From contig JAPSIA010000002.1 of assembly GCA_031179215.1 (NCBI GenBank), forward strand, positions 1 to 64,000: a DNA stretch of 64,000 bases. Reading direction: 5' to 3'. The notes below the pieces were generated by a model that was given only the letters and a program-made list of their open reading frames with translations, had not been told where the DNA came from and did no database searches. This DNA is from Agrococcus sp. (GTDB taxonomy: Bacteria; Actinomycetota; Actinomycetes; Actinomycetales; Microbacteriaceae). Made by a program: the position numbers and the translations under genes. Below are positions 10,678 through 54,586 of this stretch, in pieces; position 1 is the stretch's first letter; every line of letters begins with the position of its first letter.

Positions 10678-10710
10678 GTCGCATCCCCGCCCTCCCGCCG
10701 CCCACCGGCC

Positions 10711-10890
10711 AGTGGCGCCTCCCGCGCTCGAGTGGCGCCTTCCACCACCCACTGGCGCCTCCCGCGCTCGAGTGGCGCCTCCCGCGCTTGAGTGGCGCCT
10801 CCCGCCACCCACTGGCGCCTCCCGCGATCCACTGGCGCCTCCCGGGATCGACTGGCGCCTCCCGCCACGTGCCGCCACATCCCGCTCGTC
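10711..10890 (+). repeat. Left arm of 20-nt tandem array (8 clear units plus 1 degenerate)
   Basis: Units start at 10711, 10731, ... 10851 exactly every 20 nt; consensus A(G/C)TGGCGCCTCCCGC(G)(C/A)TCG; unit at 10871 degenerate. Confidence 0.95.
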
Positions 10891-32896: not shown

Positions 32897-34678
32897 TCAC
32901 GAGCGGGCCGGGTCGGATCCGTCGTCCGAGAGGCCGCCGGGGCCGCCCGCCGCGGCATCGCGCGCGCCTCGCTCGGCGGTCGCGGAGCCGCCGCCCGAGC
33001 CGCCCGAGCCGCCCGAGCCGCCCGCCGCGGCGTCGCCCGCGCCTCGCTCGGCGGCCGCGGAGCCGCCGCCCGAGCCGCCCGAGCCGCCCGAGCCGCCCGA
33101 GCCGCCCGCCGCATCCTCCGCGAGCCGCTTCGCGAGGTCGTCGACCGCGCGCTCGAGCGTGGGGTCCTCGCCGCGCGCGAGGCCCGCGACCTCGAGCCGC
33201 CCATCCGCCGCCTTGACCCACATGCGGCGGCGCGGGATGAGCAGCGATCCGAGCAGCGAGGCGAGGATGAGCATCGCGATCCAGAACACCGGCGCCTGCG
33301 TGTGGTCGACGTGCACCTCGATCACGCCGTAGCGGCGCACGTCCTCGAACGTGATCGTGCCGAGCCCGCCCGGGATCTCCACCGTCTCGCCCGGCACCAT
33401 CGTGAGCGCCTCGACGTCCGCCTCGCCGCCGGCGATCGGCGTCATCGCGTCGGTCTCGAGCGCGTAGACCGATCGCGGGATGCCCGCGTCGAGCCCGAGG
33501 TCGCCCGTGAACGCCTGCAGCGACAGCACGGGGTTGACGAGGTCGGGGTAGCCGGAGGCGAGCGCGCCGGTCTCCTGCTGGAAGGCGGTCGGGTAGAAGA
33601 AGCCGCGCAGGCCGAGCTGCTCGTCGAGGCCGTCGGCGACCTTGATGACGCCGAGGCTCGTCATGAGGTCGTCCTGCGCGAGGAAGGGCGTGTACTCGTC
33701 GTAGACGAGGTCGCCCTCGGCGTCGCGCACCGAGATCCGCGGGGCGTAGCCGTTGGAGATGAGGTAGAGGTCGGCGCCGGCGACCGACAGCGGCTCGTTC
33801 ACCTTGATCTGCGCCTGGCGCTCCTCGCCGCCCTCGGTGACCGCGACGTGCGCGGTGAAGTCGAGCGGTGCGCCGATCGCGTTGGGGTTCTCGGTCTCGT
33901 AGACGACGTCGAGCTCGTCGAGCTGCAGGGCGAAGGGCGCGAGCGCGGCGTCATCGAACCACTGCCCCGACGAGAAGGTGTCGTAGCTCGAGAGCGCGTT
34001 CGCGAAGCCGCGGCCCTCGACGAGCAGCCGCTGCCCGTTGTAGCCGAAGCCCGAGCCGAGGCCGACGACGACGATGATCGCGAGCATCGCGATGTGGAAC
34101 AGGAGGTTCCCGGTCTCGCGCAGGTAGCCCCGCTCGGCCGAGACCGACTCGCCGTAGCGCGCGGTGCGGTAGCCGAGGCGGCGCAGCACCCGCTCGGCGC
34201 GGTCGAGGTCGGATGCGTCGCCCGGCACGGTCTGGAACCCCACGAGGCGCGAGAGCCTGGCGGGGGTGCGCGGCGGCTGCGCCCGCATGGCGCGCCAGTG
34301 GTGCACGAGGCGCGGGATGACGCAGCCGACGAGCGACGTGAACAGCAGGATGTAGATGGCCGAGAACCACGGGCTCGAGTAGACGTCGTGGAGCGAGAGC
34401 GCGTCGTAGAGCCAGACGAGGTCGGGGTTGTCGGCACGCACCTGGATGACGCCGTTGGGGTCGCTCGAGCGCTGCGGCACGAGGCTGCCGGGGATCGCGC
34501 CGACCGCGAGCAGCAGCAGGAGCACGATCGCCGTGCGCATCGACGTGAGCTGCCGCCAGAGGAACCGGAGCCAGCCGGCGACGCCCAGGCGCGGCCCGCC
34601 GGGTGCCGCGGGCGCGGCCTCCGGCGCGTCGATGTGGTCGCCCGGGCGCAGCGGGTCGGAGCTAGATGATCGTGACAA
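32897..34678 (-). CDS. resB: Cytochrome c biogenesis protein ResB
   Basis: WRQLTSMRTAIVLLLLLAVGAIPGSLVPQRSSDP, LHDVYSSPWFSAIYILLFTSLVGCVIPR. Confidence 0.93.
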   Translation of the reverse strand: MSRSSSSDPLRPGDHIDAPEAAPAAPGGPRLGVAGWLRFLWRQLTSMRTAIVLLLLLAVGAIPGSLVPQRSSDPNGVIQVRADNPDLVWLYDALSLHDVYSSPWFSAIYILLFTSLVGCVIPRLVHHWRAMRAQPPRTPARLSRLVGFQTVPGDASDLDRAERVLRRLGYRTARYGESVSAERGYLRETGNLLFHIAMLAIIVVVGLGSGFGYNGQRLLVEGRGFANALSSYDTFSSGQWFDDAALAPFALQLDELDVVYETENPNAIGAPLDFTAHVAVTEGGEERQAQIKVNEPLSVAGADLYLISNGYAPRISVRDAEGDLVYDEYTPFLAQDDLMTSLGVIKVADGLDEQLGLRGFFYPTAFQQETGALASGYPDLVNPVLSLQAFTGDLGLDAGIPRSVYALETDAMTPIAGGEADVEALTMVPGETVEIPGGLGTITFEDVRRYGVIEVHVDHTQAPVFWIAMLILASLLGSLLIPRRRMWVKAADGRLEVAGLARGEDPTLERAVDDLAKRLAEDAAGGSGGSGGSGGSGGGSAAAERGAGDAAAGGSGGSGGSGGGSATAERGARDAAAGGPGGLSDDGSDPARS

Positions 34679-53928: not shown

Positions 53929-54019
53929 CTTTCCGGGGTCGCAAGATTCGCCCTAGCCGAACCGGCGTCCACCGTGTATGAACAGAGGTGACGGGGTTTC
54001 CGGCCGACGAAGGAGCGAC

Positions 54020-54124
54020 ATGAAGAACACCCGACAGCTGCCCACACACCTGCTCATCGCGCTCGGTGGCGACGACGACATCATCATGTCGAGCATCGCC
54101 GGCGACGACGACATCATCATGTGA
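54020..54124 (+). CDS. Small ORF with duplicated core (34 aa), possible precursor peptide
   Basis: MKNTRQLPTHLLIALGGDDDIIMSSIAGDDDIIM*; SD AAGGAG 4-9 nt upstream; strong hairpin 17 nt after stop. Confidence 0.6.
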   Translation: MKNTRQLPTHLLIALGGDDDIIMSSIAGDDDIIM

Positions 54125-54141
54125 CGATCCATCGCATGAGC

Positions 54142-54185
54142 CCGCGGCCGCGGCGCTGACTCACACAGTCGGCCCGCGGCCGCGG
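54142..54185 (+). terminator. Strong GC hairpin after small ORF
   Basis: CCGCGGCCGCGG...CCGCGGCCGCGG arms with inner GC(T/G)GAC pairing and TCACACA loop. Confidence 0.6.
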
Positions 54186-54334
54186 TGCGTCCGGCGCCGG
54201 CTGCGCGTCGTCTCCCGGCCCTGACCTCGCGGTCGCGCACGATGTGCGACCCGCGCCTTCCGCCTCCACGAGCGCGTCATCCTCGCGATCGGCAGTCGCA
54301 TCCTGCACCGACCGGCGGCCTTGGCGGAGCCCAC

Positions 54335-54434
54335 GCCGCCACATCGTGCAGGCGCCCTCGGCCCACCTGCACGGATCGGCTGCCTCCCCGGAGCAGGAGC
54401 CGCCACATCGTGCAGGCGCCCTCGGCCCATCTGC
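54335..54434. repeat. 36-nt direct repeat, 2 copies, 64 nt apart
   Basis: GCCGCCACATCGTGCAGGCGCCCTCGGCCCA(C/T)CTGC at 54335-54370 and 54399-54434; one mismatch. Confidence 0.9.
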
Positions 54435-54458: not shown

Positions 54459-54586
54459 CTGCTGCCGACGCCAGCGCCGTCGCGAACCTGCTCGCGCGGC
54501 TGACGAGCGAGGAGGACCTCTCGGTGACCGGCCAGGTGATCTTCACCGACGGCGGTGCCGAGGCGATGCCGCCCGAGCTCGCCTGA
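54459..54586 (+). pseudogene. C-terminal remnant of an SDR-family oxidoreductase
   Basis: VANLLARLTSEEDLSVTGQVIFTDGGAEAMPPELA* matches SDR C-terminal consensus (VTGQ-DGG); no SDR body upstream in any frame. Confidence 0.65.

Follow-up and report, generated by a model that had tools for sequence, protein, structure and literature searches.

A putative young microprotein gene family behind osmC in Agrococcus carries one to three identical acidic-hydrophobic motifs

On comparative sequence evidence, we believe that the small ORF directly behind osmC in the window (the whole 64,000-nucleotide stretch of Agrococcus sp. DNA that was analysed) is a real, young, genus-restricted microprotein gene family. 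Among 24 genomes placed in the genus (the Agrococcus group), osmC was found in 22, and in 17 of these an intact homolog lies directly 3' of it; the homolog loci include A. baldri, A. sediminis, sp. KRD186 and sp. HG114. The first-pass annotation had described the ORF as an orphan and named homologs with a conserved frame as a check on its reading; these 17 intact genes supply them. The small ORF trailed osmC by roughly 90–175 nt and its frame was 32–38 aa, and both the ribosome site and the following hairpin were present in every homolog as judged from sequence (17/17 each). Fewer replacement than silent changes were found in this conserved frame, and by that measure the small ORF behaves as a protein-coding gene.

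The features of the locus are listed in Table 1. The coordinates reported earlier for the Shine-Dalgarno site, the start codon and the 34-aa frame proved exact when the window was read again: the ATG is at 54020, the frame runs from 54020 to 54121, the TGA occupies 54122–54124, and osmC precedes the frame by 91 nt on the same strand. The 22-nt segment GGCGACGACGACATCATCATGT was likewise confirmed in two identical copies (54068–54089 and 54101–54122), 33 nt apart, and the hairpin, said to begin 17 nt after the stop codon, was located there as the inverted repeat CCGCGGCCGCGG at 54142–54153 and 54174–54185. The exact 22-nt repeat is not exceptional by itself; the same test picked out a small number of further short-period repeats ≥22 nt long elsewhere in the window. 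It is raised above chance because 17 genomes keep the frame, ribosome site, position and hairpin and because pN is 0 in both copies across seven clade-A species.

Table 1. Features of the osmC–small gene locus in the window
Feature	Position	Strand	Basis or remark
osmC, OsmC-family peroxide-detoxification protein, 140 aa	53506..53928	+	Pfam PF02566, 8.4e-17
Intergenic element, possible promoter or activator site (putative function)	53941..54000	+	Upstream-region alignment
Shine-Dalgarno AAGGAG	54010..54015	+	Purine-rich ribosome site kept in 17/17 homologs
34-aa microprotein gene MKNTRQLPTHLLIALGGDDDIIMSSIAGDDDIIM	54020..54124	+	
N-terminal QLPTHLL-x-x-L-G, residues 6–16	54035..54067	+	Predicted short helix, low confidence
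Motif copy 1, GDDDIIM	54068..54088	+	Clade A pN 0, pS 0.26
Spacer SSIA, drifting freely	54089..54100	+	pN 0.31, pS 0.23
Motif copy 2, GDDDIIM	54101..54121	+	Clade A pN 0, pS 0.31
GC-rich hairpin, probably terminating both osmC and the small gene	54142..54185	+	Fold energy

The repeated unit has the consensus [G/E/D]-D-[D/G/P]-[F/W/D]-I-I-M. GDDDIIM was found in seven genomes and EDDFIIM or DDDFIIM in six, GDDFIIM occurred in two copies in G006 and in three in G001, and GDGWIIM was found twice in G007 and GDPWIIM once in G017. The variable number of units, another check named by the first-pass annotation, was thus observed, with one to three identical units behind a distinct N-terminal part. 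The distance between copies was 7, 8, 9, 11 or 13 residues, and neither the residue before the unit nor the residue after it (S, G, D, R or stop) was constant. The QLPTHLL-x-x-L-G segment was conserved in clades A and B and replaced in the deeper lineages; the N-terminal part was replaced in G001, G006, G007 and G017, all of which keep the unit. Within the genus, D-x-[F/W]-I-I-M was met only in the small-gene family, the few other matches being D-x-C-I-I-M.

In the 16 multi-copy genomes, the copies were always the same in amino acids and differed only silently, and the units varied between lineages. Therefore, the copies change together, and the selection acts on the peptide rather than on a DNA or RNA repeat. 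Across 12 distinct copy pairs, each compared within its genome, 15 differences were silent and none was a replacement; this would have a probability of about 7e-13 if changes were random, a figure that ignores shared ancestry. Over the whole frame of seven clade-A species, pN was 0.098 and pS was 0.334; by segment, pN was 0 in both motif copies, 0.06 in QLPTHLLxTLG and 0.37 in residues 2–5. Replacement changes were suppressed and silent ones were not, a pattern that comes out in favour of a gene in the dN/dS check proposed earlier and contradicts the alternative of a duplicated RNA or DNA element offered with it. Copy-specific silent differences (GGT/GGC) were kept in G006, G019, G010, G018 and G007 beside replacements common to both copies, and copy-specific GAT/GAC was found in G014 and G020, which differ by G to N in both copies. 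The persistence of these marks suggests matched selection and not copying between copies, although the pattern may instead stem from conversion over very short tracts or from silent changes that recurred.

The small ORF was absent behind osmC in five osmC-bearing genomes (G008, G021, G023, G012 and G003), and the most divergent form of the family, used as a query, gave only chance-level matches elsewhere in these five. When 400 Microbacteriaceae genomes were searched with a profile, only chance-level matches within long unrelated frames were found outside the genus. The weak matches across the family (E 5e-4 to 0.1) were rejected as relatives because they lay inside such frames; the one exception fell in a 50-aa frame that a stop codon interrupts. 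The region directly behind osmC was inspected in 25 other genera, and in none did it contain a similar small ORF preceded by a ribosome site. The search of viral contigs, phages and plasmids found no credible relative; the single weak plasmid match was rejected because it was a response regulator. Pfam, NCBIfam, PHROGs, PDB and Rfam gave nothing credible for the small gene, and a literature search on the motif strings found no paper. In the osmC tree, G008, G021 and G023 clustered with the outgroups, and G003 and G012 were long-branched and of unsure placement. The simplest reading of this weak tree would be that the small gene was gained once, at the base of the main Agrococcus clade, and was then retained.

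The gene next to the small gene was osmC in 17/17 small-gene-bearing genomes. In the 16-kb neighbourhoods, the left flank comprised FKBP, an antiporter and osmC, and the right flank was variable. By eye, the gene between fkbp and osmC in 8/17 genomes (e.g., L056 and L057) is cation/proton antiporter-like and about 570–600 aa long; such a gene was also found beside osmC in G008, G021 and G023 and is not at that place in the window. The hairpin of the window folds at −49.5 kcal/mol (z = −4.3), and a similar fold was found 3' of the small gene in 17/17 genomes, with two-sided changes at 7 of 16 consensus pairs. In 16/17 genomes, the strong hairpin came after the small gene and none that strong was found between osmC and the small gene; in G007, a strong hairpin separates the two genes. 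Where the small gene is missing (five genomes), osmC was followed at a short distance by a hairpin of comparable strength (−33 to −40 kcal/mol). From these positions, the small gene appears to lie between osmC and the terminator of osmC. We believe that osmC and the small gene are probably co-transcribed. In L073 (G023), an array of repeats of about 40–60 nt (CACCAGCACCGCTCGGTGAGGTGCGAGCGCAGCGAGC..) was seen behind osmC where the small gene would be.

The alignment of the upstream regions of 17 genomes contained a conserved intergenic element, which reads in most lineages GCAAA/GGAAACTTTGC .. TAGCSGAAA (TAGCGGAAA) .. TATAAACAG. The element includes the near-palindrome GSAAASTTTSC; clade B has CCTACATTCAGCAGTAG in place of the element, and the copy in the window is diverged (cgcaagattcgccctagccgaac..tatgaacag). 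No match to the sigma-70 consensus was found in the element. It may give the small gene its own promoter, and if the element is an independent promoter, co-regulation with osmC may be wrong.

We speculated that the small gene encodes a disordered multivalent docking peptide that works unmodified and acts with osmC in the same condition, a reading to which we give close to, though short of, an even chance. The peptide would be intrinsically disordered and would be a multivalent ligand of short length: one to three identical acidic-hydrophobic motifs (D-x-[F/W/D]-I-I-M) would dock, together with the basic N-terminus, on a single partner surface. If all motif copies bind that surface, they have to remain alike and evolve jointly, and a change in the surface would be followed by all of them. 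AlphaFold gave the peptide alone no stable fold (pLDDT 54.6), and the variable spacing of the copies fits independent motifs, not a fold. G017 has a single copy, so multivalency would not be essential there. The peptide would be made with OsmC and is therefore probably active in the same condition, with peroxide or envelope stress as the probable one. By position, OsmC is the first partner candidate. More broadly, we hold the tentative view, which we rate somewhat below half-likely, that this is an undescribed microprotein family born in the genus, in which the motif copies co-evolve with a receptor, either as a multivalent ligand that works inside the cell in connection with peroxide defence or as a released multi-copy peptide signal made without the tested RiPP enzyme families.

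A multi-core precursor, in which the N-terminus is a leader and the motif copies are excised, with or without modification, to be released as a small peptide signal or antimicrobial, is unlikely in our opinion and is still to be weighed seriously. It would account for copies that number one to three, are the same within a genome and differ between species, and for the distinct N-terminal part. Such precursors are known, and those of the microviridins are described in PMC5934393 as carrying several cores. The small gene resembles multi-core RiPP precursors in its short ORF, distinct N-terminus, near-identical repeated units and variable copy number, but it has no cognate enzyme or exporter nearby. 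When the 16-kb neighbourhoods were compared, no modifying enzyme was found near the small gene in any genome, in agreement with the earlier remark that none was recognisable nearby, and no enzyme or exporter was common to these neighbourhoods, for which conserved neighbours had earlier been proposed as a check. PqqD/RRE, SPASM, YcaO, MNIO and the C39 peptidase PF03412 were each found in 0/24 genomes, with positive controls, in a scan for these five families; a remotely encoded enzyme of another family (P450, ATP-grasp, LanC-like, lasso cyclase, non-SPASM radical SAM or a general protease) may exist. Ser, Thr, Cys and Lys are all absent from the unit, so that the usual acceptor residues are missing. 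In RiPP precursors, the leader is usually conserved and the core variable, whereas here conservation was higher in the "core" than in the "leader", and the residues beside the units lacked the conservation expected of a cleavage site. A double-glycine exported peptide was rejected because GG stands ahead of the unit in only part of the homologs and PF03412 is missing from all 24 genomes. Thus, the part of the earlier modified-peptide proposal that stood is the selected peptide gene with one to three units and a distinct N-terminus; against its precursor role stand the missing enzymes and the greater conservation of the core.

The constant position of osmC directly upstream, the shared terminator 3' of the small gene and the varying right flank would also suit a microprotein that binds and regulates OsmC itself. 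We regard this as rather improbable: most OsmC-bearing bacteria, including five genomes of the group, have no such peptide, and in AlphaFold the chain of OsmC, linker and peptide left the peptide unplaced (pLDDT about 50), in a run of low power with 34 sequences and no OsmC dimer. The docking chain was the G019 locus read through two stop codons, solely as a docking device. A dual-function or regulatory RNA, with the ORF incidental or an attenuator leader, would be in keeping with a short transcript that ends in a very stable conserved hairpin and with a unit that is also a nucleotide repeat; the suppression of replacement but not silent changes, the lack of a constant downstream gene to regulate and the lack of an Rfam match make it quite implausible. 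The candidate of a cis-regulatory leader peptide or attenuator was rejected because the right flank is not conserved and a terminator-like hairpin directly follows the ORF. That a spurious ORF has undergone neutral tandem duplication and gene conversion is hardly credible; the exact 22-nt repeat within 33 nt of GC-rich DNA and the other simple repeats of the window would allow it, but 17 intact homologs, a pN of 0 in the units and silent inter-copy differences argue against it.

One known kind of bacterial microprotein works by binding to a larger protein. The small gene is like this kind in its length of <50 aa, conserved frame, lack of a domain and constant neighbour gene, and differs in its one to three identical units that change in step and in its occurrence in one genus group. 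RTX or beta-roll calcium repeats (GGxGxDxUx) also consist of repeated glycine-aspartate followed by hydrophobic residues, as in the small-gene unit. An RTX repeat was rejected because the spacing of 7, 8, 9, 11 or 13 is not the fixed 9, there are at most three units and Pfam gave no match below 0.3. We believe that the small gene is a clean, small example of a bacterial gene that is young, confined to one lineage and strongly selected, in which natural variation in the motif (DDDIIM, DDFIIM, DGWIIM and DPWIIM) and in copy number (1, 2 and 3) forms a built-in experiment. It also indicates that the appearance of a leader plus a repeated core is not sufficient to call a RiPP precursor.

Some minor observations were made in the window. 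On the + strand at about 54460–54586, a frame looks by eye like the C-terminal end of a short-chain dehydrogenase (..LTSEEDLSVTGQVIFTDGGAEAMPPELA) whose remaining part is absent; it is perhaps a remnant, and no Pfam match was obtained for the longer ORF that contains it. A tandem pair of 64-nt copies with 84% identity (CCTGCACCGACCGG..CATCGTGCAGGCGCCCTCGGCCCA) lies at 54302–54429, just 3' of the hairpin. About seven 20-nt units form an array at 10710–10845 (ASTGGCGCCTCCCGC..), and nine-base tandem repeats (gccgcccga) were seen inside longer repeated blocks at 32990–33110.
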